A stretch of 44,589 nt of DNA from positions 1 to 44,589 of the forward strand of contig CACNFT010000006.1 of assembly GCA_902619825.1 (NCBI GenBank), read 5' to 3'. The position numbers were made by a program, and so were the translations under genes. This DNA comes from an uncultured Candidatus Actinomarina sp. Its GTDB lineage: Bacteria; Actinomycetota; Acidimicrobiia; Actinomarinales; Actinomarinaceae. A model generated the notes under the pieces. That model worked only from the letters and a program-made list of their open reading frames with translations, had not been told where the DNA came from and ran no database searches. Below are positions 7,801 through 36,876 of this stretch, piece after piece. How positions within the stretch are numbered: the first letter of the stretch is position 1; each line of letters starts with the position of its first letter.

Positions 7801-10800
7801 ATTACAAATAATGAAAGTTCAACTATTTATGTAAAGGTTGAATACAAAATAGATGACGGCTCATACCAATCAGCAAACGCAAACTTAACTATTGCTGGTG
7901 GGGCGACTGATACTAGTGTTTCACAAAATGTATCCAATGGTTCAAAAATCACATGGAGGGTGACTGATTCCTTCACAAATAATGACTTTACAAACATGAG
8001 TGCTGAGGTACAGACACAGAGCTCTACTGTTGATTGCTTAGTACCAACAACTTTTTCACACTCATTTGGTAGTTGTGCAAGTGGAGCAATGACAAACACA
8101 GCAAGCATTACAAATGATTCAAGTGCTACTGCTTACTACTTAGTTGAATACAAAATTGATGATGGTTCTTATCAAACTGCAGCAACTAACCTTTCTGTTG
8201 GAGCTGGTGCAACAAATACATCCTTGACTGCTTCTGTGCCTCATGGCTCAACAATTACTTGGAGATTTAAAGACAGCAGCACAGATGGTAATTTTTCTGG
8301 TGCAAGCTATGAAGAACAAGCAGCTAGTTCAACTGTAGATTGTGACCCTGAAGTTACAGCTACGCAAGCTTTTGGAAGTTGTTCAAGCGGTTCTCAAACA
8401 AATACTTTAACGCTAACTAATGCTGAAAGTGCAACTGCTTATGTAAAAGTCGAGTACAAGATTGATAGTGGTTCATATACGACTTTAAATAACAATGTTT
8501 CAGTATCAGCAAGTAGTACCGACACTTCTCAGTCAGTCGCAGTACCACATGGATCTACAATTACATGGAGGGTAACAGACTCATTTACAAGTGCTGACTA
8601 TACCAATATGACCGCAGAATCAGAGGTTACATCATCTGCTGCGGACTGTGATCCTGATTCAACATTTTCTACAGCTTTTGGAAGCTGTGGAAGTGGTGCA
8701 AAGACGTCTACATTGACCATTAATAATACAGAATCATCAGATACAGTCTATTACAAAGTCGAGTACAAAATTGATAGCGGTTCCTATACTACATTGTCTT
8801 CAAACCTCTCAGTGGCCGCAAGTGGAACCAATACAGCATCAACTGTAAGTGTTCCTGATGGATCAACAATTACATGGAAAATTACGGATACCTTTACTTC
8901 AGATGACTTTACTGCAATGTCAGCTGAGCAACAGACTACATCTGATGCAGTAGATTGTGATCCAGAAATTACAGTATCATCATCTTTTGGAAGTTGTTCT
9001 GGAACATCTAAAACCTCAACCTTATCAATTACAAGTGGAGAGGGATCACCAATTTATGTAAAAGTTGAATATTCTATAGATGGTGGTGCCTATCAGACAT
9101 CTTCAGCTAATTTAACTGTCTCCTCTTTCGCAACAGATACATCGCAAAGTGTCTCAGTTTCAGAAGGATCATCAATTACATGGAGAGTAACAGATTCATT
9201 TGATAGTGCTGATTTCACGAACATGAGTGCTGAAACTCAGTCTGCTAGTGAGGCTGGAACATGCACAACAACTACTACTACAACTACAACTACAACAACA
9301 ACTACTACAACAACTACTACTACAACAACAACAACGACTACAATTGCCCCAACTACAACAGCTCCACCTGAGGTATTTGACCCATTCTTCATAAACAATC
9401 GCCAATGTTCAGGTTCTGGAGCAAACTACTCATTTTATGTTGACAACACCTTTTCTTCAGTTGGAATGAGGTTGATTGTTCGAATTTGGGTAGATGGTAA
9501 TTTGTTAAGTAAGACAGAATATACTGTTGGCTCAGGCCAATTCTTTGGGGTAAATACTGTTTATAACGCTAGTGAGGGTTCAAGCTATAGAATTAAATTT
9601 AAAGTAAGGGACTTAAAATCCAATGAGTTAAAGGTAACAGGAAGATTTAAGAACAAAGTTAATTGTGATTTATTAACAGGAACTTCAACTACAACGACAA
9701 CATTACCAATAATTTCAACTACAACTATAACTACAATGCCGTTAGATGACGGCCTAGATTTCAGTGGTTTAGATATAGATTTTGGTGAATTAGAGGTCGG
9801 TCCAAAAAAGGAAAATCCAGATGATAATGAAGAAACAAACGAGGATGAGAATACAAGTGAAGATTCAAATAACCCTAATGGATCAAATGAAATAAATAGT
9901 GGAACTGATCCAGAAGACGGTGGAAACGATACTAATAATGAAGATGAATTTGATGGAGATGGTGACGAAGATTTCACAGAGTTAGTAGATAACAAACTAG
10001 TTGTTTGGGATGATTTTGAAGAAAATATATTTTTTACAGATGGTAGCTACAGAGTGAGATATAGATTTTCTGAGGATGCAATTCAGCTTGCTGATACAGG
10101 AATTGATTTAGACTATGTAGCAATCGGGGGATTGTCCTTTTTTGTTCTAGGCATTGTACTCTTCACAAGTTCAAGAAAAAGAAAATTGATGGATAGTGAA
10201 ACATCCCTTGAAGATATATATAAAAATGCATACAAATTAAAAATAAAAATTGAAAAACTTATAAAAGAAAAAGTTGAAATAAATATCGACATTAATAAGT
10301 TTGCTCCATATGCAAAAAATTTCAATTCTTATGAAAATGATATTCAAGATTTGAACAGTGAACTTCAATACACATTAGTTGCGATTAAAAATATTAAAAC
10401 TATTTGTGAGAAAAACAATGAAGAATTTACAAAAGATCTATTACAAGAAAGATTAAAGCTAATCTCTAAAAATTTTGAAATCAATTACACAGGAAATAAT
10501 TTAGAACAATCTGAATCTGTAAAAATTACTGAACAAAAAGATACAAAAAAAATTAAAAGAAAGTTTTTCGAGAGAAAACAATTGAGAAGACCTGTCATGG
10601 GGTTAGCTGTTTTATCTATTTTAATGGGAATGAGTTTTGGGATTTATGCAACTCAACAAATGTATTTATCAAATATCCAACAAGATAACGCACAAGATTA
10701 TCTAGAAAAACTTTATTTAGGTGAAGAAACTATTAATACAGAAAAACCAAACAACCTATATAAACCACTTAGAATTTTTCAGTCTGATAATCCTGTTTTT

Positions 10801-11265
10801 GACATATTTGAAGATTTCACCTCAATAGACCAAAGTTCAAAAATTGAAGAATATCAACCATCTGTTTTAGGTTTATTAGAAATCCCAAATACAAACATTA
10901 GTCAATATGTTGTCTCTGGAACAGATGATCAAAGTCTTCAATTTGGTCCAGGGCATTATCTTGGAACTAGTTTGCCAGGTTCAGGAGGAAATGTTGGTAT
11001 AGCTGGTCACAGAACTACCTACGGTGCACCATTTAGTAGACTTGATTCAGTTCAAATAGGTGACGAAATGTACCTTACAGTTGGCTCTAATAAATATCAT
11101 TATGTAGTTGATGAAATAGAAATCGTTGATCCTGTTACAGGAGATTATGTACTTTATGATAGAGGAGATGACAGACTTACTTTAACAACATGCCATCCAA
11201 GATATTCAGCTAGGCAGAGATTAGTAGTCTCAGGATTCCTTACAAAAATTGAAAGTGGTAATTAG
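4828..11265 (+). CDS. Giant surface repeat protein with internal LADTG sorting signal and fused C-terminal sortase domain
   Basis: The single frame encodes 2145 residues. (1) A Lys-rich, hydrophobic signal peptide ends with ALA-SG near residue 46. (2) A Ser/Thr-rich, propeller-like domain runs to about residue 335. (3) Eleven Ig-like repeats of about 100 residues follow, each bounded by two cysteines. (4) Then come 26 consecutive threonines, a twelfth related domain, a second Thr linker and a Glu/Asp/Asn-rich stretch. (5) LADTG at 1754-1758 is followed by a hydrophobic span and SRKRK, the layout of a sortase substrate. (6) A charged, coiled-coil-like cytoplasmic segment reaches about residue 1920. 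(7) A second span covers about 1923-1943. (8) The last 135 or so residues are a sortase domain with H2061, TLTTC ending at C2122 and R2131, resembling class E. The topology is consistent: repeats outside, linker inside, sortase outside. The start is GTG with no good Shine-Dalgarno. An internal ATG at 10189 could alternatively begin a separate 358-residue sortase. Confidence 0.85.
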   Translation: MLLFKKLFSFVFSKKTFNLVMSFLMIVSLAYVTIETIDPEPALASGEFSCTNSDGAGYVFQSTYSSGTLSILRGSNDSSSSFSTSTIETFSSWSHGNIEEVNSLSITPDGDMYAILKRTNTSQVYFYKLNYNGSGAGTTTHISSVTSDLGTGDNNAASYYETTSGATTYKYIFTSKGFFKGNSKAIRLNSDGTYKVIDITISSGSSWASNKAKDFAFIQDSSTHDFIAFNSNTDDLLAATVSHTNIGASNESISVALSQRASSVGSSMSSNSGAAMTLGDGIVYFLENDDGRLWKYDYANDTSTGNDTNEFVLTSDSFNSSSNTDGAGCGTGNAEPPAGSVTASAASQGSCSSGAATANFTLSATGTTMYYDLQRRIDTGSGFSSWLTTVNGGSISAGGSFTAGTGTARDHGTVVEYQYRAGSSNPSSGSYISVDSNGDSLSITINCPLTTYNATPSLGSCSTGFALPSIAIENTGNTTAYFDVQYKIDSGSWVTLENGNGITSGATETYSLPSSQAHGVVISWQVRNGTSNPSSGSYTSAGSSTVDCPTGTVSVSVSAGSCSAGSSTPQISITNGTNETQVFDVQYKIGSGGTWQDLQDGNSISSSSTETYTLSSAQTHNTQVYFQYRYATSNPSSGSYTSTDGSSNTLLATVDCVYINPAASQSFTTTCSAGARTNSLVLTNASPANSTAYFLVEYSLDDEASWTVKESNQAVAVGGSETLTQSVVDTKFIVWRYKTSSTSDSFTGDYTTMSDSSTVDCDPDITVSSSFGSCSGGAKTSTLSLENNESSTVYVKVEYSVDGGTYQTKTANLSISGSATDTSQTHSVTDGQTIAWRITDAFDSDGNFTNMAVETQSTSSPVDCDPETNLSASFGSCASGAKTSTLSIENTESSTAYYKVEYQIDSGTFTTANSNLSVSNGATDTSQTASVPDGSTITWRITDSFDNDGNFTNMVTETLDASDAVDCDPSITVVNPPAIACAGSQGSSTISITNNESSTIYVKVEYKIDDGSYQSANANLTIAGGATDTSVSQNVSNGSKITWRVTDSFTNNDFTNMSAEVQTQSSTVDCLVPTTFSHSFGSCASGAMTNTASITNDSSATAYYLVEYKIDDGSYQTAATNLSVGAGATNTSLTASVPHGSTITWRFKDSSTDGNFSGASYEEQAASSTVDCDPEVTATQAFGSCSSGSQTNTLTLTNAESATAYVKVEYKIDSGSYTTLNNNVSVSASSTDTSQSVAVPHGSTITWRVTDSFTSADYTNMTAESEVTSSAADCDPDSTFSTAFGSCGSGAKTSTLTINNTESSDTVYYKVEYKIDSGSYTTLSSNLSVAASGTNTASTVSVPDGSTITWKITDTFTSDDFTAMSAEQQTTSDAVDCDPEITVSSSFGSCSGTSKTSTLSITSGEGSPIYVKVEYSIDGGAYQTSSANLTVSSFATDTSQSVSVSEGSSITWRVTDSFDSADFTNMSAETQSASEAGTCTTTTTTTTTTTTTTTTTTTTTTTTTTIAPTTTAPPEVFDPFFINNRQCSGSGANYSFYVDNTFSSVGMRLIVRIWVDGNLLSKTEYTVGSGQFFGVNTVYNASEGSSYRIKFKVRDLKSNELKVTGRFKNKVNCDLLTGTSTTTTTLPIISTTTITTMPLDDGLDFSGLDIDFGELEVGPKKENPDDNEETNEDENTSEDSNNPNGSNEINSGTDPEDGGNDTNNEDEFDGDGDEDFTELVDNKLVVWDDFEENIFFTDGSYRVRYRFSEDAIQLADTGIDLDYVAIGGLSFFVLGIVLFTSSRKRKLMDSETSLEDIYKNAYKLKIKIEKLIKEKVEINIDINKFAPYAKNFNSYENDIQDLNSELQYTLVAIKNIKTICEKNNEEFTKDLLQERLKLISKNFEINYTGNNLEQSESVKITEQKDTKKIKRKFFERKQLRRPVMGLAVLSILMGMSFGIYATQQMYLSNIQQDNAQDYLEKLYLGEETINTEKPNNLYKPLRIFQSDNPVFDIFEDFTSIDQSSKIEEYQPSVLGLLEIPNTNISQYVVSGTDDQSLQFGPGHYLGTSLPGSGGNVGIAGHRTTYGAPFSRLDSVQIGDEMYLTVGSNKYHYVVDEIEIVDPVTGDYVLYDRGDDRLTLTTCHPRYSARQRLVVSGFLTKIESGN
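5842..9264 (+). repeat. Eleven tandem Ig-like domain repeats, about 100 codons each
   Basis: Each unit starts near a GSC or similar cysteine motif, continues through a YYKVEYKIDSGSY-like strand and a GSTITWRVTDSF-like strand, and closes with VDC. Between units 5 and 6 the first cysteine recurs after 309 bases (7147 to 7456). Units 1-4 are more divergent (NPSSGSY type), and units 5-11 are closely alike (FTNM type). The first paired cysteine is at 5878 and the last at 9262. A twelfth, degenerate copy follows the Thr stalk (RQCSGSG to KVNC). One disulfide per domain is likely. Confidence 0.85.
9265..9342 (+). repeat. ACN triplet microsatellite encoding 26 threonines
   Basis: Twenty-six consecutive ACA/ACT/ACG codons directly follow the last cysteine of repeat 11. 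Because the array is built of triplets, length change would lengthen or shorten the stalk without shifting the frame. Such Thr runs are typical of flexible, possibly glycosylated stalks on surface proteins. Confidence 0.9.
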
Positions 11266-11892
11266 ATGGTAACAGAACCTTTAAAGAAAGATGGTAGAAG
11301 TGTCAGAGGTAAAAAAACTTTTGATGATGTACATAAAAAGCTAATCGATAGCGCTGTTCAACTTTTTAACAACCCAATACTTTCACCAGATCGAGTAACT
11401 GTCACAGAAATTGCAAAACATGCTGGTGTATCGGTAGCTACTGCCTATAATCATTTTCCTGAAAATAAACTAGATGTTTACGGATCACTATTTCAATTGG
11501 GTTTTCAGGATGTATCTGTAGAATTTAATAAATTTTTAGAATCATCTCCTGATGCAGATGAAGCAATTAAAGTTTTTTTAGATACGATAGTTTTAAAATG
11601 CGTTGAATTGGGTAATGCTATAAGATTTGCATGGTTTGAGGTCAGAGAAATACTTGCTTCTGGTAAGTGGATACAAGGTGAGCCTTATGATGTCTTACAC
11701 AAACTATGCACAAATTATGATTCAAAAAATGCAGACAATTTGTGTGACGATATTTTTCAAATGTTTAATGGTGCAACATTACTCTGGTTAAGATACGATC
11801 CTGATTACTCAGTTTGGTCAAAATATACAGATGAATGGTATATGGAAAATGTTAACCAGATTTTTGATAAGGTAACTAAAATTCACGAGTAG
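11266..11892 (+). CDS. TetR/AcrR-family transcriptional regulator
   Basis: The 208-residue protein has an N-terminal helix-turn-helix of the TetR type around residues 44-64 (VTEIAKHAGVSVATAYNHFP), where the YNHF segment is the usual end of the recognition helix. The remaining helical part would bind a ligand or form the dimer; it is rich in Trp and Asp near the end and I recognise no specific subfamily. The ATG directly follows the stop of the sortase-fusion gene, so it is likely co-transcribed with it. It could control this surface-protein island, but no operator could be identified with confidence. Confidence 0.85.
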   Translation: MVTEPLKKDGRSVRGKKTFDDVHKKLIDSAVQLFNNPILSPDRVTVTEIAKHAGVSVATAYNHFPENKLDVYGSLFQLGFQDVSVEFNKFLESSPDADEAIKVFLDTIVLKCVELGNAIRFAWFEVREILASGKWIQGEPYDVLHKLCTNYDSKNADNLCDDIFQMFNGATLLWLRYDPDYSVWSKYTDEWYMENVNQIFDKVTKIHE

Positions 11893-28174: not shown

Positions 28175-28197
28175 AACTTAAACATATTTAAGCTTAA

Positions 28198-28218
28198 CGT
28201 TTACTTTGCGTTTACTTT
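28198..28218 (+). promoter_or_regulatory. PHO-box-like direct repeat upstream of pstS
   Basis: CGTTTACTTT occurs at 28198-28207 and again at 28209-28218, a perfect 10-base direct repeat with an 11-base period. That period is the spacing of PhoB/PhoP-type binding half-sites. It lies 53-73 bases before the pstS start. AT-rich sequence downstream (such as TAATTT at 28241-28246) could act as -10. AAGGAAA at 28261-28267 is the ribosome binding site of pstS. Confidence 0.6.
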
Positions 28219-28270
28219 TACAAAATACTCTGACCATTGTTAATTTAATTAAATTAAAGAAAGGAAATCC

Positions 28271-30127
28271 ATGATTAGATCAAGATCTAAGTTTTGGTCT
28301 TTACTTCTTGTGATGGTTCTCGTTCTTGCTGCCTGTGGTGGTGGAGATGATGATACCTCTTCAGAAGAAAGTGAAGAATCAACAACATCGGAGGAAACAG
28401 CCAGTAGTCAAACAACTGTAGCTTCTGATAGTGGTAGTAGTGATGCAGGCTTAACTGGATCAATACTTATCGACGGATCTTCAACTGTTTTCCCTATTAC
28501 ACAAGCTGTAGCAGAAGAATTTACTGCAGTTAACCCAGGTGTAGAAATATCTGTAGGTGTGTCAGGAACCGGTGGAGGATTCAAGAAATTTTGTCCTGGA
28601 GAAACAGATATATCTGATGCTTCAAGACCAATCAAAGATAAAGAAAGAAATCTCTGTTATGAAGGTGGCACAGAGTTCACTGAACTACAAGTCGGTGTAG
28701 ATGCACTTTCTGTTGTTGTTCCAACATCAAATAACTGGGCAACATGTTTAACAGTTGAAGAATTAGGAAAAATCTGGGGTGCAGATAGCACAATAACAAA
28801 CTGGAAAGATGTTAGAGCAGGTTTCCCTGATGTTGCACTAGACCTATATGGTCCAGGTACAGACTCAGGTACATTTGACTTCTTCAATGAAGAAATAACT
28901 GAAGATTTGGGTGGAAGTCGATCAGACTATACAGCATCTGAAGATGACAACGTTCTCGTAAACGGTGTCTCTGGATCAGCTGGTGGATTAGGATACTTTG
29001 GACTCGCATATTATGAAGAGAACAAAGATAAACTAACTGCTGTTGAAGTAGATGCAGGAAAAGGATGTATAGGTCCTGAAGGAGCTTTCTCAGGAACTTA
29101 TGGATTAGCAAGACCATTATTTATATATGTAAATGATGCAAAAGCGAAAGATCCTGTAATCAAAGCTTTCGTTGACTTTTACTTTGACTCACTTGATCCA
29201 ATTGTTGAAGCTGTTGGCTACATACCAATGTTGCCAGATGCAGCTGATAGACAATTAGAATACTGGCAGGTTATATCTGGCGATTCAACCCTCAGTGGAG
29301 AAATTCTTATTGATGGTTCATCGACAGTGTTCCCTGTAACACAAGCCGTTGCTGAAGAGTTTACAGCTATTCATTCAGATGTAGCTATATCAGTCGGTGT
29401 TTCAGGAACTGGTGGAGGATTCAAGAAATTCTGTCCAGGTGAGACAATGATTTCAGACGCGTCACGTCCAATTAAAGATAAAGAAAAAGCACTTTGTGAA
29501 GAAAATGGTGTTGGATACCTTGAAATTCAAGTAGGTATCGATGCACTTTCTGTTGTTGTTCCAACATCAAATAACTGGGCAACATGTTTAACAACTGCTG
29601 AATTAACATCAATCTGGGGTGCAGATAGCACAATAACAAACTGGAAAGATGTTAGAGCAGGTTTCCCTGATGTTGCACTAGACCTATATGGTCCAGGTAC
29701 AGACTCAGGTACATTTGACTTCTTCAATGAAGAGCTTACAGAAGACGCAGGTGGAAGTCGATCAGACTATACAGCATCTGAAGATGACAACGTTCTCGTA
29801 AACGGTGTCGCAGGATCAGCTGGTGGATTAGGATACTTTGGACTCGCATATTATGAAGAGAACAAAGATAAACTAACTGCTGTTGAAGTTGATGCAGGTG
29901 ATGGTTGTCAACCACCAGAAGCAGCTTTTGAAGGAAATTACTTCCTTGCACGTCCGCTATTCATTTATGTAGCTGAAGCTGCAAAAGGAATGTCTCAAGT
30001 TCGTCAATTTGTTGACTTTTATTTCGTAGCAATGGATGCAATTGTCCCAGCAGTGGGATATGTTCCAATGCTTCCAGAACAAAAGATGGCATCATTGATG
30101 GGCTGGTCCGCATTCAGTCGAGGATAA
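28271..30127 (+). CDS. pstS: Phosphate-binding lipoprotein with two tandem PstS domains
   Basis: PstS captures phosphate outside the membrane for the PstCAB transporter. The signal peptide ends in a lipobox LAAC (C22), followed by an acidic Ser/Thr linker to about residue 58. Two complete PstS domains then follow, from [11 protein letters not shown] near residue 63 and again near residue 343, with a period of 280 residues. Each has the phosphate-binding segments [25 protein letters not shown] and [12 protein letters not shown]. Ordinary PstS has a single domain; this 618-residue double form is unusual. The linker between domains is only a few residues ([11 protein letters not shown]). Several stretches of the two halves are identical in DNA. 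A PHO-box-like repeat precedes the gene, and pstCAB follows after a hairpin. Confidence 0.93.
28700..29889 (+). repeat. Near-identical 840-base-period duplication within pstS
   Basis: Identical blocks shared by the two halves are 28700-28753 with 29540-29593 (54 bases), 28771-28893 with 29611-29733 (123), 28910-28969 with 29750-29809 (60) and 28973-29049 with 29813-29889 (77). Between and outside these blocks the halves differ clearly, also in protein sequence. Confidence 0.9.
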
Positions 30128-30220: not shown

Positions 30221-31138
30221 ATGAGTCTACTATCTGAATTATCTCAAACCTCAATGAAACCTTTTGAAAAAGTAGTAAAATTTTTTATAACTGTCTCTGC
30301 TTTTGCAGCAATACTAATATCAATTTCAATTGTTTTTACCTTACTAACTGAAGCCATTAACTTTTTTCAAGATCCAGCTGTAACTTTAAAGGGCTATTTT
30401 ACTGCAACTAGGTGGACACCTACGTTTCAAAATCCTGAGTACGGTGTTATTGTTTTAATCTCTTCAACTCTTTATATTGCGGTTATTGCCTGTCTTATTT
30501 CTTTTCCATTAGGTTTGTTTTCTGCAATTTACCTATCTGAGTTTGCGACAAAAAGAACAAGAAAAGTTATCAAACCAGTTTTAGAAGTTTTGGCTGGAGT
30601 TCCTACAGTGGTATTTGGTTATTTTGCACTTAACTGGATTACGCCAAATATAATTCAAAGATTTATTCCAGGTACCGGTGTATTCAATGCTCTGTCCGCA
30701 GGTATTGCAGTAGGAATAATGATAATACCTACAATTGCCTCAATCTCTGATGATGCCCTTAATGCAGTACCAAACTCTCTAAGGAATGGATCCTTAGCTC
30801 TTGGCTCTACCAGGAGGATCACAGCACTTAAAATTATGTTCCCTGCAGCAATATCTGGAATTATTGCTTCATTTATATTAGGTTTTTCAAGAGCCATAGG
30901 TGAAACAATGATTGTGACTATTGCAGGTGGGCAGTATCCTGAATTAAATTTAGATCCTAGGAGTGCAATGTATACGATCACTTCCTCAATAGTAAACGTA
31001 TCCCTTGGTGATACACCTCATGGCACCACTGCTTATAATGCTTTATTCGCACTTGGAATAACTTTATTTATTATGACTTTTATTTTGAATATAGCTTCTG
31101 ATTATGTCGCTAGAAAGTACAGAAAAGAATATGAGTAA
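30221..31138 (+). CDS. pstC: Phosphate ABC transporter permease PstC
   Basis: PstC is one of the two membrane subunits of the high-affinity phosphate importer. The 305 residues have six predicted spans. The EAA-type loop includes NAVPNSLRNGSLALGSTRRITALKIMFPAA, which contacts PstB, and GFSRAIGETMIVTIAGG. The gene follows the hairpin after pstS, and its end overlaps pstA. Confidence 0.95.
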   Translation: MSLLSELSQTSMKPFEKVVKFFITVSAFAAILISISIVFTLLTEAINFFQDPAVTLKGYFTATRWTPTFQNPEYGVIVLISSTLYIAVIACLISFPLGLFSAIYLSEFATKRTRKVIKPVLEVLAGVPTVVFGYFALNWITPNIIQRFIPGTGVFNALSAGIAVGIMIIPTIASISDDALNAVPNSLRNGSLALGSTRRITALKIMFPAAISGIIASFILGFSRAIGETMIVTIAGGQYPELNLDPRSAMYTITSSIVNVSLGDTPHGTTAYNALFALGITLFIMTFILNIASDYVARKYRKEYE

Positions 31139-32051
31139 CGAAACAATTATAACCGGCAAGAAAGCTGAAAATGCAATAAAGGAGAGTTTGTTTCTGTTCA
31201 CTCTTTATATTTGTGTAACGATTGCTATTTTAACTTTGATGACCTTAATCTATGATGTTCTTTCTACTGGGACTACAAGATTGACATCAGACTACGAGGT
31301 TGGCCTCATTACAAAAATACAAATTGATAACCCGAGAGATTTTTTAACAACTTTAGACTCAAGATATCCAGATAGAGCTGGTATTGGACCTGCTTTTGCT
31401 GGAACATTATGGTTAATGATAATAGTTATTTCTGCAACATTTCCTTTTGGTGCAGGAGCAGCAATATATCTTCAAGAATTTGCTCCAAAAAATAGGCTTA
31501 CAAGATTTATTGAATTAAATCTAACAAACTTGGCTGGAGTTCCATCAGTTATTTATGGTTTACTAGGATTAGCTGTTTTTGTTCGTTTAGCTGGATTTGG
31601 AAGGTCAGTACTTTCAGGAGGTTTAACATTAACGTTATTAATTCTTCCAGTTGTAATCGTAGCATCTAGGGAGGCTCTTAAAGCTGTTCCAGATACAATA
31701 CGCCAGGGTGCATTAGCGCTAGGTTCCACTAAATTTCAAGCAGTTTTTAGGCAGGTTGTTCCCTCTGCAATACCAGGAATGGTTACTGGAATGGTCCTTG
31801 GGCTCTCAAGAGCAATTGGAGAGACCGCACCATTAATTTTTATGGGTGCATTGACTTATGTTAATTATTTTCCAGACACTCCATTAAGTGGGTTTACCGC
31901 TATTCCAATTCAAGTTTATAACTGGGTTGGTTATCCTCAAGCTGAGTGGAAGGAGACAGCTTCCGCTGGAATCATTTTACTTCTAGGTTTATTATTATTT
32001 ATGAATTCAATAGCAATATTTATAAGAAACAGATATGAGAAAGATTTTTAG
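31131..32051 (+). CDS. pstA: Phosphate ABC transporter permease PstA
   Basis: PstA pairs with PstC. It has six predicted spans, NLAGVPSVIYG and the coupling loop KAVPDTIRQGALALGSTKFQAV, followed by GLSRAIGETAPLIFMGA. I prefer the ATG at 31131 (MSNETIIT), which overlaps pstC by eight bases as elsewhere in this operon. An in-frame ATG at 31104 would add nine residues and a longer overlap. Neither has a strong ribosome binding site. Confidence 0.94.
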   Translation: MSNETIITGKKAENAIKESLFLFTLYICVTIAILTLMTLIYDVLSTGTTRLTSDYEVGLITKIQIDNPRDFLTTLDSRYPDRAGIGPAFAGTLWLMIIVISATFPFGAGAAIYLQEFAPKNRLTRFIELNLTNLAGVPSVIYGLLGLAVFVRLAGFGRSVLSGGLTLTLLILPVVIVASREALKAVPDTIRQGALALGSTKFQAVFRQVVPSAIPGMVTGMVLGLSRAIGETAPLIFMGALTYVNYFPDTPLSGFTAIPIQVYNWVGYPQAEWKETASAGIILLLGLLLFMNSIAIFIRNRYEKDF

Positions 32052-32075
32052 TGAAAATCATAAAGGAGAATGAGA

Positions 32076-32885
32076 ATGGAAACTAAAGAAACAGTTCATG
32101 TAAACAATGCAAATGTATTCAATGTAAAAGATGTCTCAGTAAGCTACGGAGAATTCGTAGCTATCAAAAATGTAAATATGGATATCTCTAAAAATAAAAT
32201 TACAGCTTTTATTGGCCCATCTGGTTGTGGAAAGAGTACTTTGATAAGAACATTTAATAGAATGAATGATCTTATATTGGGTGCAAAAGTTAATGGAACA
32301 ATAAATTATCAAGGTGTTGATTTATACGACAAAATGGTTGATCCAGTGCAAGTGAGAAGAAGAATCGGAATGGTTTTTCAAAAACCAAATCCTTTCCCAA
32401 AAACTATCAAAGAAAATATTACCTTTGGGCTTAAAGTCAACAACATGACTGACAATATGGATGAAAGAGTAGAGAGGGCATTAACTCAAGCAGCGTTATG
32501 GGATGAAGTAAAAGATGATTTAAACAAAAATGCATTAGAGCTATCAGGTGGTCAGCAACAAAGATTGTGTATTGCTAGAACAATTGCAGTTGAGCCAGAT
32601 ACAATTTTAATGGATGAGCCTTGCTCTGCATTAGACCCTGTAGCAACAAAAAAAATAGAAGACCTTATGCAAGAGTTAGTGAAAGAGTTTTCAATTCTTA
32701 TTGTTACGCACAATATGCAGCAAGCCTCAAGAGCCTCTGATTATTGTGCATTTTTTACAACTAAAACCTCCGATGATGGCAAAAGAAGAACTGGAGAATT
32801 AGTTGAGTTCAATGAAACGAATACCATGTTTACAAATCCTGATGAGGAATTAACTGAACAATATATATCTGGAAGGTTTGGATGA
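32076..32885 (+). CDS. pstB: Phosphate ABC transporter ATPase PstB
   Basis: PstB powers phosphate import by ATP hydrolysis. Walker A is GPSGCGKST, the signature is LSGGQQQR and Walker B is ILMDEP. The full-length match to PstB includes [15 protein letters not shown]. The start is set by AAAGGAG at 32062-32068: the ATG at 32076 (METKET) is seven bases away, while the in-frame ATG at 32070 is only one base away and unlikely. It ends in an ATGA overlap with phoU. Confidence 0.95.
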
Positions 32886-33523
32886 GTTTACAAGACAAGA
32901 TTGACAATCTTGAGACAGATTTACATTTAATGGCAAGACTTGTACTAGATTCTTTAGTAGATGGCGTAAGAGCTTTAGAGGATAAAGATGTCAATAGAGC
33001 TATAGAAACAATAGAAAAAGATGATGAAATTGATAAATCTTACCTAAATATTGATCAGGACTGGATTGAACTTATGGCCACTGAGCAACTTGTTGCCACT
33101 GACTTAAGACTTTCTACATCTATTTTACAAGCCAGTTTACATTTAGAGCGTCTTGGTGATTTAGCTGTCTATCTTGGAAAAACGACGCAAGAGATTTTTG
33201 ATTCACCTGTACCAGAGTCTATCCATGCAACAGTTGTTGAAATGGGAGATATAGTAATAGACATGGCATCATCAGCTATGGAAAGCTTAAAAACCAGAGA
33301 TAAAGACTTAGCTCTAGTAACGTCTGAAAAAGATAGTCAAGTAAATAGATTATACAACTCAATGCTAGAAGAAGCCCCAAAAATTGCTGGCAATGAAGAT
33401 TTGTATAATGGATTATTTAGACTTGTTACCTGTATGCGAACACTAGAAAGAGGTGGAGATCACGCAGTTGATATTTGTGAGCTCACACACTTTTTGGTTA
33501 CCGGAGAGTTTAAAGAATTTTAA
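32882..33523 (+). CDS. phoU: Phosphate-specific transport regulator PhoU
   Basis: PhoU links the Pst transporter to the histidine kinase and restrains the phosphate response when phosphate is plentiful. The 213 residues form two similar three-helix halves. Each half has the acidic metal-binding type motif ([25 protein letters not shown]). It overlaps pstB by four bases and the response-regulator gene by one base. Confidence 0.94.
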
Positions 33524-34215
33524 TGAAGCAAAAAATCCTTTTAGTAGAGGATGAGCATAGTATTGCTGACTCAATATCATACAACTTAAAACAAGAGGGT
33601 TTTTCTGTAACTCATGTTGATGAAGGACCTATTGCGTTAGAGTTATTCCAGGAAGAAGAGTTTAGTTTAATTATTCTTGATTTGATGCTTCCAGAAATTT
33701 CTGGTTTAGATATATGTAGATCGGTTCGTAAAACATCAGATATACCAATAATTATGGTTACTGCTAAAGATAGTGAAGCTGATAGAGTTGCTGGACTTGA
33801 AATCGGTGCTGATGATTATGTTATAAAGCCATTTTCTGTAAGAGAATTATTAAGCAGAGTCAGGGCAGTGCTACGAAGGACAGATATGTCTAAGAATGAA
33901 AAATCATCACAGGTAATAAAAGTTGGAAATATTGAGATAGACATTGGTAAATATGAAGCAAAAGTTAATGATAAACAAATTAATTTGAGACCTCGAGAAT
34001 TTGAACTTCTTTATGCTCTCTGTGAGAATAAAGGTAATTTAATGTCTAGAGAACAAATATTTGATGAAATATGGGGATATACGTTTATAGGTAATTCAAA
34101 AACACTTGATGTACATATACAAAGAATTCGCGAAAAAATTGAGAAAAATCCAAAAGATCCTAAAAAATTAATAACTGTTAGAGGAGTAGGATATAAACTT
34201 GTAGAAGATGAATGA
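33523..34215 (+). CDS. PhoB/RegX3-like response regulator
   Basis: The 230-residue OmpR-family regulator has a receiver domain with the phospho-acceptor D53 (IILDLMLP) and KPFS near residue 102. A winged-helix DNA-binding domain (about 130-228) ends in SKTLDVHIQRIREKI and VRGVGYKL. Its place after phoU and before a kinase gene makes it the likely activator of the phosphate regulon, and the PHO-box-like repeat before pstS its likely target. Start and stop overlap both neighbours. Confidence 0.92.
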   Translation: MKQKILLVEDEHSIADSISYNLKQEGFSVTHVDEGPIALELFQEEEFSLIILDLMLPEISGLDICRSVRKTSDIPIIMVTAKDSEADRVAGLEIGADDYVIKPFSVRELLSRVRAVLRRTDMSKNEKSSQVIKVGNIEIDIGKYEAKVNDKQINLRPREFELLYALCENKGNLMSREQIFDEIWGYTFIGNSKTLDVHIQRIREKIEKNPKDPKKLITVRGVGYKLVEDE

Positions 34216-34903
34216 AAATCAAGAACAAAATATTGAAAAAATAAGAGAAGATTTTGTTGCAAATGCATCTCATGAGTTGAAAACTCCGATAACGTCCATC
34301 CAACTAGCAGCAGAGACAGCATTAAATGCTATAAATGATGGAAATACAGAGGATGGATTAAAGTTTATTAAACAAATTCTTAGAAACAGTGAACGAATGT
34401 CACTCCTTATCAGTGATTTACTTGATTTATCTAAAATTGAGCAAAATGAACCAAATTTAGAAATTTCTGATCTTGAAAATATAGTAAATATGGAAATTTC
34501 ATACTTAAAAGAAAACGATCAAGCCAGACTTAATGCAAACATTGAAAATATTCATATAAATGTTGACCAAGAAGATTTTGCATTAATCGTTCGAAATATA
34601 TTACGTAACGCAGTTACTTATTCTGACCCAGACACTCCTATTGAAGTTCATTTGAAGAAGGATGATGAAGATGTTTTATTCAAAGTAATAGATAAAGGTA
34701 AGGGAATCTCTCAACAAGATCAAGAAAGAATCTTTGAACGATTCTATAGAATTGATAAAGGCAGGTCTAGAAACTTAGGTGGAACAGGAATCGGTCTTTC
34801 AATAGTAAAACATGCAGTTGATAGGAATAACGGGACAATTGAACTAGACAGTTTGCTAGGTGAGGGCACTACTTTTTCAATTAAATTTAAACAAAATGTA
34901 TGA
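34208..34903 (+). CDS. Soluble PhoR-like histidine kinase lacking a sensor domain
   Basis: The 231 residues hold only the kinase core. The HisKA helix has H22 in ANASHELKTPITS. The HATPase domain has RNILRNAVTYSDP, DKGKGIS, ERFYRIDKGRS and GGTGIGLSIVKH. There is no membrane span, PAS or HAMP domain, whereas PhoR/SenX3-type kinases normally have membrane and PAS parts. A stop codon (34202-34204) in the same frame just before the ATG rules out a longer N-terminus. It overlaps the response-regulator gene by eight bases and ppk by four, so it is a coupled partner of that regulator. Input probably comes through PhoU or PstB, which is inference. Confidence 0.9.
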   Translation: MNENQEQNIEKIREDFVANASHELKTPITSIQLAAETALNAINDGNTEDGLKFIKQILRNSERMSLLISDLLDLSKIEQNEPNLEISDLENIVNMEISYLKENDQARLNANIENIHINVDQEDFALIVRNILRNAVTYSDPDTPIEVHLKKDDEDVLFKVIDKGKGISQQDQERIFERFYRIDKGRSRNLGGTGIGLSIVKHAVDRNNGTIELDSLLGEGTTFSIKFKQNV

Positions 34904-36876
34904 CAGATATAGATCTTCTTGATCGTGAATCATCCTGGTTAGAGTTCAACAAAAGAGTATTAACTTTATCAAAAGATAGCAGTGTTCCTTTCAAGGATCG
35001 TTTATTTTTATTCGGTATAACACATTCTAATTTAGATGAGTTTTTTCAGATTCGAATTTCTGGATTGCTTGAAAAAGTTTACGAGACTATTAACCAAAAG
35101 CTGGATGTTTCAATTTCGAAAGAAACATTTGTATATTTTAAAGATATTCTTGAAGAAGCTAAAAAGGAGATGATAAATAGAAACACAGTTTGGAAAGAAT
35201 ATTTTGTAAAAGATCTAGAAAAGCATGGTGTAAATTTTAAGAGGATGAAAGACCTCACTGAATCTGAGCTTGATATATTAGAAGATTATTTTGATAACAA
35301 TATAAAACCCCTCCTTACTCCCTTGGCTGCAGACCCTACACATCCATTTCCATACATTTCTGATTTATCATTGTCTATCGGCGTAGTCATCAAAAACGAA
35401 TTTGAAGATAATCAATTTATACGTATAAAAATCCCAGCAAGTTTAGGTTCATTTGTAAATTTAAATAAGGAACAACTTGTATGGATACATGAATTGATTC
35501 TTCACTATATTGATAAACTGTTTTTTCCACACACAGTTATTGAAAAGTTTTGGTTTAGAACAACTCGTGATGCAGATTTAGAATTTAGAGCAAGTTTAAA
35601 GCGAAATTTTCTGGAAGTTGTAAAAGAGGGATTAGAAAATAGAAAATTAGGAAAAATTGTAAGATTAGAAATCCAAGAGGGAGTTTCAGTAACAACTCAA
35701 AAATACTTAAAAAATAATTTAGAAATAGATTATGACCTTCAAGTTGAATTAAAGGACCCACTTACTAGATTTCAAATTAATTCTTTGATAGACCATATCG
35801 AATTTTCTACAAGTTGGAAATTACATGAGACTGAATTTGAATTTAGCAATGATATGTTTGAAATTATTAAAAATAATGATGTGATGGTACATCATCCTTA
35901 TGATTCATTTGAGAAAACAGTTTTGCGATTTTTAGAAAAAGCATGTTTTGATCCATATGTACGTGCCATAAAAATGACACAATATAGAACTGGTTTAACT
36001 GCTGAAAACGATAAGATAACATCCCTATTAGCAAGTGCAGCGAGAGGAGGTAAACAAGTTGCTGTTTTAGTTGAATTGAGAGCACGGTTCGATGAAGAGC
36101 AAAACATCTCGAATGCTGAATACTTAGAAGAATCAGGTGTTCATGTTACGTATGGAGATCCAAGATATAAAGCTCATACCAAAATGATTTTAGTTGTTCG
36201 TGAAGAAAATAATGAATTAGTACCATATATGCACTTTGGAACAGGTAATTACAATGTTTTAACATCAAAGGGATATGAGGATATTGGCATTTTCACATCT
36301 GATAAAAGTATTGGTAATGATTGTGGAATAGTTTTTAATTCGTTAACTGCTTATGCTGATAGAGAAAATCTTGATGAGTTGCTAGTAGCCCCTGAGTCTT
36401 TAGAGAAAAATATTAACTCATTAATTGAAGAACAAATAGATTTAGGAGAAGAAGGAAAAATTGTTTTAAAATTGAATAATCTTACTGATCCATTAATCAT
36501 ACAAAAATTATATGATGCGGCTAATGCAGGTAATCAGATAAATATTATAGTAAGGGGAATTTGTTGTCTCATACCAATTAAAAATATAAATGTTATTTCT
36601 ATACTTGGTCCTTTTTTAGAACACTCAAGAATATATAAATTTGGAAGATCAGATATAGAAAAAATATATATAGGGTCTGCAGATTTAATGCAAAGAAACT
36701 TAAGACATAGAATTGAAGTATTAGTACCTATAAAAAGCCCGATAATAAAAAAGAAACTCAGTAGTCTCTTAGAAAAATATATAAAGTCTGACAAGTATTC
36801 ATGGACGTTAAAAAATGATGGAACATGGAAAAAATTAGATGGAAACTACAATATCCAAGAGAAGTTAAACAAATAA
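34900..36876 (+). CDS. ppk1: Polyphosphate kinase 1
   Basis: PPK1 reversibly polymerises the gamma phosphate of ATP into polyphosphate. The 658-residue protein has the four-domain layout. The N-terminus reads RESSWLEFNKRVL, THPFPYISDLSLS follows, and the phospholipase-D-like catalytic part has H426 in KAHTKMILV and HFGTGNYN. RNLRHRIEVLVPI supplies the second conserved histidine. It begins in an ATGA overlap with the kinase gene, so polyphosphate synthesis is tied to the phosphate-response genes. Confidence 0.95.
   Translation: MTDIDLLDRESSWLEFNKRVLTLSKDSSVPFKDRLFLFGITHSNLDEFFQIRISGLLEKVYETINQKLDVSISKETFVYFKDILEEAKKEMINRNTVWKEYFVKDLEKHGVNFKRMKDLTESELDILEDYFDNNIKPLLTPLAADPTHPFPYISDLSLSIGVVIKNEFEDNQFIRIKIPASLGSFVNLNKEQLVWIHELILHYIDKLFFPHTVIEKFWFRTTRDADLEFRASLKRNFLEVVKEGLENRKLGKIVRLEIQEGVSVTTQKYLKNNLEIDYDLQVELKDPLTRFQINSLIDHIEFSTSWKLHETEFEFSNDMFEIIKNNDVMVHHPYDSFEKTVLRFLEKACFDPYVRAIKMTQYRTGLTAENDKITSLLASAARGGKQVAVLVELRARFDEEQNISNAEYLEESGVHVTYGDPRYKAHTKMILVVREENNELVPYMHFGTGNYNVLTSKGYEDIGIFTSDKSIGNDCGIVFNSLTAYADRENLDELLVAPESLEKNINSLIEEQIDLGEEGKIVLKLNNLTDPLIIQKLYDAANAGNQINIIVRGICCLIPIKNINVISILGPFLEHSRIYKFGRSDIEKIYIGSADLMQRNLRHRIEVLVPIKSPIIKKKLSSLLEKYIKSDKYSWTLKNDGTWKKLDGNYNIQEKLNK

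Follow-up and report, generated by a model that had tools for sequence, protein, structure and literature searches.

A Predicted PHO Box Upstream of the pst Operon in an Uncultured Candidatus Actinomarina

Introduction

The locus described here raises the question of whether a short direct repeat ahead of the phosphate-transport gene pstS is the operator of the pst operon, which regulator would read it, and whether its core represents a new motif or a form of a known one. The window, i.e. the whole stretch of DNA analysed (44,589 nucleotides), belongs to a genome of an uncultured Candidatus Actinomarina sp. of 1.08 Mb in 13 contigs (90.6% complete). The genus set consisted of 42 genomes, including that of the window, and genomes of the surrounding class were used for wider comparison. 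Searches of an open-licence library, which covers part of the literature, turned up no previous description of a PHO box in Actinomarina. A genome survey notes that no two-component systems are identifiable in this order (PMC7771536). The regulator and kinase encoded at this locus contradict that survey as far as the regulator-bearing half of the genus is concerned.

The Repeat and the Downstream Genes

Two copies of CGTTTACTTT are located at 28198-28207 and 28209-28218, with a start-to-start distance of 11 bp. The pstS ATG is at 28271, and 52 bases separate it from the second CGTTTACTTT copy. A perfect direct repeat with an 11-base period, ahead of a two-domain pstS, had been claimed in the initial annotation of this DNA and is borne out on direct reading. 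The repeated unit is GTTTAC, stepping every 11 bp (Table 1). A PHO box contains at least two direct 11-bp units, each with seven conserved and four less conserved positions, and such an arrangement is found here.

Both half-sites and their spacing are conserved in all 11 orthologous pstS promoters compared, despite alteration of much of the flank. The sole change of its kind is found in G015, where half-site 2 reads GTTTAA (final C to A). Within the predicted -10 hexamer, T28226, A28227 and T28231 are invariant across the same 11 promoters. A possible third, more degenerate unit can be made out in relatives (GTATAT..., GTTTTA..., GTTTAT...), 11 bp further upstream. In the promoter of the window this position reads TTAAGC, and no such unit is discernible.

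Within the 44.6-kb window, the pattern CGTTTACN4CGTTTAC with up to two mismatches has one match. Dinucleotide shuffles of the window gave a mean of 0.13 matches, with at least one match in 11 of 100 shuffles. The window on its own is only mildly significant support for the repeat.

The genes that follow are arranged in the order pstSCAB-phoU-regulator-kinase-ppk, with overlapping ends from pstB through ppk. A two-component pair linked to pst and phoU is found in the window and also in relatives such as G012, G015 and G025. Two-domain PstS frames, of 702 residues, are present in two other genomes of the class (G063 and G151), and matches long enough for two PstS domains occur in Methylophilaceae/Methylotenera records (L288, L299 and L305). 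Within the same genus, G027 has a single-domain pstS downstream of the same promoter.

Table 1. Coordinates of the putative promoter elements and of the genes of the pst locus within the window.
Feature	Position	Strand	Basis
PHO-box half-site 1, GTTTAC (11-bp unit 28199-28209)	28199..28204	+	identical in 11/11 pstS promoters with the window's gene order
PHO-box half-site 2, GTTTAC (11-bp unit 28210-28220)	28210..28215	+	GTTTA invariant in 11/11 promoters
Possible third, degenerate upstream unit position	28188..28198	+	weak, suggested by relatives
Predicted -10 hexamer TACTCT	28226..28231	+	begins exactly 10 bp past half-site 2
pstS, 618-aa lipoprotein, two PstS domains	28271..30127	+	TIGR02136 in 2 stretches, 513 bits (cut-off 206.6)
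pstC	30221..31138	+	TIGR02138, 254.2 bits (cut-off 196.45)
pstA	31104..32051	+	TIGR00974, 256 bits (cut-off 193.45)
pstB	32070..32885	+	TIGR00972, 371.5 bits (cut-off 343.2)
phoU	32882..33523	+	TIGR02135, 138 bits (cut-off 130.25)
RegX3/PhoP-like OmpR-family response regulator, proposed box binder	33523..34215	+	best solved relative RegX3 2oqr, E 6.7e-71
Histidine kinase, 231 aa, HisKA and HATPase_c only	34208..34903	+	Pfam; dN/dS well below 1
ppk1, polyphosphate kinase	34900..36876	+	TIGR03705, 613.8 bits (cut-off 465.85)

Distribution of the Motif in the Genome and Genus

The exact pattern GTTTACN5GTTTAC occurs at two sites in the window's genome, ahead of the pst operon and ahead of a phnD-like gene (Phosphonate-bd family). 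The second of these lies approximately 40 bp ahead of its gene; the next gene downstream encodes an ABC-type ATPase, as judged by eye. When one mismatch was allowed, seven sites were found against nine for the reversed control, and the five one-mismatch sites are all within coding sequence. Similarly, TTTACN6TTTAC gave 33 matches and its reversed control 24 across four genomes, with no strong excess. As the one-mismatch counts are not in excess, the case for the motif rests on location and not on number.

Across the 42 genomes, which as members of one genus are not independent samples, 25 exact sites were found, compared with 14 for the reversed pattern. Phosphate- or phosphonate-transport genes lie behind 22 of the 25 (pstS 10, nptA 11 with the site in reverse orientation, phnD 1), with the other three in coding sequence. 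All 10 pstS sites are on the same strand as the gene and in the window's gene order; the genes behind them comprise six complete two-domain forms, three cut by contig ends and one single-domain form (G027). None of the 14 reversed-control sites is ahead of a recognisable phosphate gene, nine being coding and five intergenic. The concentration upstream of phosphate-acquisition genes that is characteristic of a PHO box is thus seen at both exact sites of the window's own genome and at 22 of 25 in the genus.

The genome-wide search had been set as a test in the initial annotation, with a lack of enrichment as the refuting outcome. That outcome was not obtained for the exact motif, which is concentrated by location ahead of pst, nptA and phnD genes; the bare counts with one mismatch carry no such excess.

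With a pyrimidine permitted at the fourth base, GTTYACN5GTTYAC has 31 sites in the genus, 25 of the T/T and six of the T/C form, and none of the 31 begins with GTTCAC. Five T/C sites are coding and one is intergenic (G034); none precedes a recognisable phosphate gene. The genes neighbouring the T/C and reversed-control sites were judged from their first residues by eye. Two of the five intergenic reversed-control sites lie 23 bp ahead of a 151-aa gene.

The rare phnD operon with a box was observed in two genomes, that of the window (L001, contig C4) and G005 (L071). A second, widespread phnD-like gene, approximately 50% identical, has no exact box in any of the 42 genomes; the upstream regions of 23 of these widespread (group-2) genes were also read by eye.

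Promoter Architecture

The forward boxes compared number 22, from 16 pstS, four pstC and two phnD promoters, and represent 16 distinct sequences. TAnnnT starts exactly 10 bp past the last half-site in 20 of the 22 (14 of 16 distinct). The remaining two boxes, both of phnD, read CATTAT and CATAAT at this offset, and nAnnnT is found here in all 16 distinct sequences. At the other offsets examined (3 to 16), TAnnnT reaches at most 4 of 22 and nAnnnT at most 6 of 16. Omitted from the 22 are a forward one-mismatch site ahead of nptA in G014 (L127, 2508), which has no TAnnnT at 10 bp, and a relic box in G018, which has one.

The 10-bp layout is common to three different promoters, those of pstS, pstC and phnD; G005 has a degenerate phnD box that stays in register. 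Because the box ends 10 bp before the predicted -10, it sits at the place of the -35. The overlap with the -35 position that is typical of PHO boxes is predicted at the forward boxes from this fixed spacing.

The pst operon is split in a second group of the genus, for example in G012, G025 and G032. In these genomes, forward boxes that retain the 10-bp layout precede both pstS and pstC, and nptA, a Na/Pi symporter gene (one member scanned, PF02690), is located behind the kinase gene and preceded by a reversed box. The nptA -10 (TATAAT or TATACT) starts 55 bp past the start of the reversed box in 10 of 11 genomes, G014 being the one that differs. As this box is reversed and starts 55 bp before the -10, an ‘activator at the -35’ does not describe the arrangement predicted for nptA.

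The reversed nptA box lies at 9393-9420 of the reversed locus L123 (G012) and occurs in 10 further genomes; most of these boxes have three units. The box was also considered as an antisense promoter directed toward the kinase gene; this was rejected, as there is no steady TAnnnT at 10 bp in that direction (by eye). One further locus (L132 of G011, 8614-11855) contains the regulator, kinase, reversed box, nptA and a PhoU-like gene (by eye), and the pst genes are absent from it.

Relation to Known PHO Boxes

Outside the genus, 52 genomes of the class have a pstS match, and the upstream regions of 27 of them were read as 400-base stretches. The gene start is not fixed in several of these loci and the stretches include some coding sequence. 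On the coding strand, GTTYACN5GTTYAC is present exactly in 11 of 27 loci, with up to one mismatch in 18 and with up to two in 23; the other four have at least three mismatches. At these three levels (exact, up to one, up to two), the reversed pattern has no match at all, the opposite strand has 1, 3 and 6, and shuffles give 0.02, 0.08 and 0.77. The class sites are mostly GTTCACC, with GTTTACC in both units in G061. By eye, the 10-bp layout to the -10 is not common to them.

The window's half-site GTTTAC matches the actinobacterial GTTCAC(C) form at five of six bases. The PolR site of Microlunatus phosphovorus is reported to be GTTCACnnnnnGTTCaC, a motif identified with MEME and shown by footprinting at genes for phosphate and poly-P (PMC6754071), and the PHO-box core of Streptomyces is given as GTTCACC (PMC4415409). 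Shared with these PolR and PhoP boxes are the 6-bp direct repeats in an 11-bp frame, the location upstream of pstS and other phosphate genes, an OmpR-family reader and the G-T-T-x-A-C core. The Actinomarina box differs from them in that both half-sites have T in place of C as their fourth base, in the exact 10 bp to the -10, and in a degenerate third unit in relatives. Overlap of PHO-box units with the -35 is described for the glpQ promoters of S. coelicolor (PMC7866108).

Other systems differ in core. For mycobacterial RegX3, the reported consensus is GT/GTCAcc-n4-cG (PMC7884335). RegX3 is the closest solved regulator and has the same recognition-helix core, KTLDVH(I/V).R; the differences lie in the site core, in residue 200 of the regulator and in the linked kinase, which in Actinomarina is without PAS and membrane parts. 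In Corynebacterium glutamicum, the PhoR site lies ahead of both pstSCAB and phoRS, the latter providing autoregulation, and its best core is given as CCTGTGAA with a 3-bp linker (PMC3353115). A tandem 11-bp frame ahead of pstSCAB is common to both; this core and linker are the difference.

Tandem 11-bp units are also a feature of the pho box bound by PhoB in E. coli. That box overlies the -35 next to the -10, as is predicted for the Actinomarina box. The core is CTGTCAT in E. coli (PMC4415409), in contrast to GTTTAC in Actinomarina.

Since pstS in the class is usually preceded by GTTYACN5GTTYAC, mostly as GTTCACC, and the recognition helix of the regulator is close to that of RegX3, the box is best read, by sequence, as the PHO box already described from actinobacteria, with C replaced by T at one base. 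It is to be regarded as an AT-rich variant and not as a new class of motif. The initial annotation had noted that the TTTAC core differs from published boxes and may define a lineage-specific motif. That the core sets the motif apart is not supported, as GTTTAC is GTTCAC with a single C-to-T change in the same 6+5 frame. Nor is the T confined to the lineage, since it also occurs outside the genus (G061), in a class that otherwise mostly has GTTCACC. The GTTTAC variant prevails in this AT-rich genus.

The Response Regulator and the Histidine Kinase

The regulator gene is in frame and intact, and the closest solved structure to its product is RegX3 of M. tuberculosis (Table 1). No NCBIfam equivalog was above its cut-off among the 25 matches listed. 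The recognition helix reads KTLDVHIQR in all 10 genus loci compared, and also in G014. The KTLDVH portion is conserved in 41 of 44 class loci, the exceptions being G137 (RTLDVH) and both G062 and G128 (RTLDQH).

At residue 200, the regulators of the genus loci read carry Q, and those of all 44 class loci carry K, R or M. By position, this residue presumably corresponds to Ser219 of M. tuberculosis PhoP (a hand mapping). Ser219 is described as contacting phosphate and not a base (PMC4832192). As the presumed equivalent contacts phosphate, and as a class member with K at this position (G061) has GTTTACC boxes, it is doubtful that residue 200 reads the changed base.

The assembly, 90.6% complete, yielded two OmpR-type DNA-binding domains: that of the RegX3-like regulator and that of a protein encoded beside glnA. 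The latter (L268 of the window's genome, contig C3, 1670-2329) adjoins glnA and is GlnR-like by eye.

The linked kinase is reduced to its core. Only 20-32 residues precede the phospho-histidine box in all 14 genus kinases, and the open frame cannot be longer. In the four scanned with Pfam, kinase-core families were the only ones found. The PAS domain and membrane segments that characterize a SenX3/PhoR-type kinase were not found in these 14 loci, four of them covered by Pfam. Kinases of the class have 127-414 residues before this box (24 frames near 26 regulators), three of the 24 lengths being lower bounds at the edge of the locus. The kinase of G110, the nearest by regulator identity, has a PAS domain and no clear membrane segment. 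The catalytic boxes of the genus kinase are intact by eye in the seven genomes compared. Of 21 pairs, 16 allowed dS to be estimated, and for these the kinase dN/dS lies at 0.12-0.34; most dS values exceed 1, and the ratios are rough. Regulator, kinase and PhoU all have a dN/dS well below 1.

In E. coli PhoR and mycobacterial SenX3, PhoU acts through the PAS domain, which the Actinomarina kinase does not have. The experiments reported for M. smegmatis indicate that SenX3 continues to respond to Pi after removal of its membrane part, but that both pstS and phoA are on at high Pi once PAS is missing (PMC12301784). The bare-core kinase of Actinomarina resembles this artificial PAS-less truncation, which is stuck on in M. 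smegmatis, and may be regarded as its natural counterpart. Because PAS loss has this effect in M. smegmatis, either PhoU or another input acts on the bare core in the genus, or the system is always on. It is possible, if somewhat short of an even chance, that the phosphate signal reaches the DHp+CA core directly, most simply via the PhoU encoded next door. If true, the box would show that a stripped-down kinase system still has live targets.

Proposed Mechanism and Alternatives

It is very probable that the repeat serves as the PHO box, or operator, of pst and is bound by the RegX3/PhoP-like regulator encoded as the sixth gene of the same run. The initial annotation's suggestion of a PHO-box-like operator, bound in tandem by an OmpR-family regulator such as that at 33523-34215, gains support from the location of the sites, the binding being predicted. 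On phosphate shortage, the linked kinase would phosphorylate the regulator, two copies of which would then bind the GTTTAC half-sites head to tail, with three units probably bound in relatives. The 11-bp spacing would place both half-sites on one face of the DNA. The bound regulator would cover the place of the -35 and recruit RNA polymerase in lieu of a good -35. As the regulator and kinase genes lie in the same run as the box, positive autoregulation through this box would follow if the run is one transcript. The same regulator may switch on phnD in the window's genome and pstC in the split-operon relatives, and may act on nptA in a second group, in which the box is reversed and farther upstream. 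From the DNA we infer binding, phosphorylation, activation and Pi dependence of the box and its regulator; for the pst operator, dependence on Pi is likely.

A small regulon (pst, phnD and nptA) would in this way be readable from DNA alone, with the box as a candidate Pho marker for ocean metatranscriptomes of this uncultured group. What is new in the predicted system is the host group, the base that prevails in the box and a kinase lacking its sensor; the kind of operator is already known.

GlnR sites are likewise repeats with an 11-bp period, and the site could belong instead to the GlnR-like OmpR-type regulator beside glnA, tying phosphate uptake to nitrogen. In favour of this, only two OmpR-type DNA-binding domains were found in the assembly and the second adjoins a glutamine synthetase gene (both named by eye). 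This assignment is nonetheless highly improbable. GTTYACN5GTTYAC is absent from the 5 kb around glnA and the GlnR-like regulator, and the box co-occurs with the RegX3-like regulator (18 genomes with both, 18 with neither, three exceptions on each side), an association that is partly shared deletion. Moreover, the GTTCAC form is the published site of PhoP and PolR (PMC6754071, PMC4415409). Even less credible is a chance or structural repeat of the AT-rich intergenic region with no regulatory role. The modest significance within the window alone and the lack of a count excess with mismatches are what such a repeat would give; it is at odds with the register kept in 11 of 11 orthologous promoters despite the altered flank, and with the box at further phosphate-transport promoters, the fixed spacing to the -10 and the class-wide GTTYAC repeats before pstS.

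A different objection grants the binding and disputes the switch. The regulator may occupy the box as a fixed, Pi-independent activator (or repressor), leaving the system permanently on, and this is unlikely without being far-fetched. It would agree with the bare-core kinase seen at all 14 genus loci and with the reported derepression of pstS and phoA at high Pi by the equivalent SenX3 truncation in M. smegmatis (PMC12301784). The conservation of regulator, kinase and PhoU alongside the box, with dN/dS well below 1, is hard to explain without switching. Against the repressor version, the fixed distance of 10 bp between forward boxes and the -10 favours activation at these boxes. A PHO box read by a switchable RegX3/PhoP-like regulator is the preferred reading.

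Co-occurrence and Loss Across the Genus

The regulator in its close form is found in 21 of the 42 genomes; a 22nd, G016, has only a 36% relative. The counts of co-occurrence with the box are drawn from incomplete genomes. The regulator is found alone in three, namely G015, which has the one-base box variant, and G024 and G028, in which the contig ends before pstS. The box is found alone in G009, G016 and G022, in each case at a contig end. The association is considered to be partly shared deletion because the box and the regulator genes are linked.

Five genomes have neither a regulator nor a pstS match (G019, G031, G033, G037 and G039). A deletion scar is found in these: approximately 20 codons from the start of the regulator gene persist, flanked by the upstream deacetylase gene on one side and nptA on the other. 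Missing are the remainder of the regulator, the kinase, the box and the pst genes of the locus; the -10 of nptA is retained. Regulator, transporter and box have vanished together, and the short scar that remains is a record of the loss of the regulon. In G018, the pstS box region is fused to the nptA -10. The scars are located at L102 (G031), L111 (G033), L114 (G039), L115 (G019) and L116 (G037).
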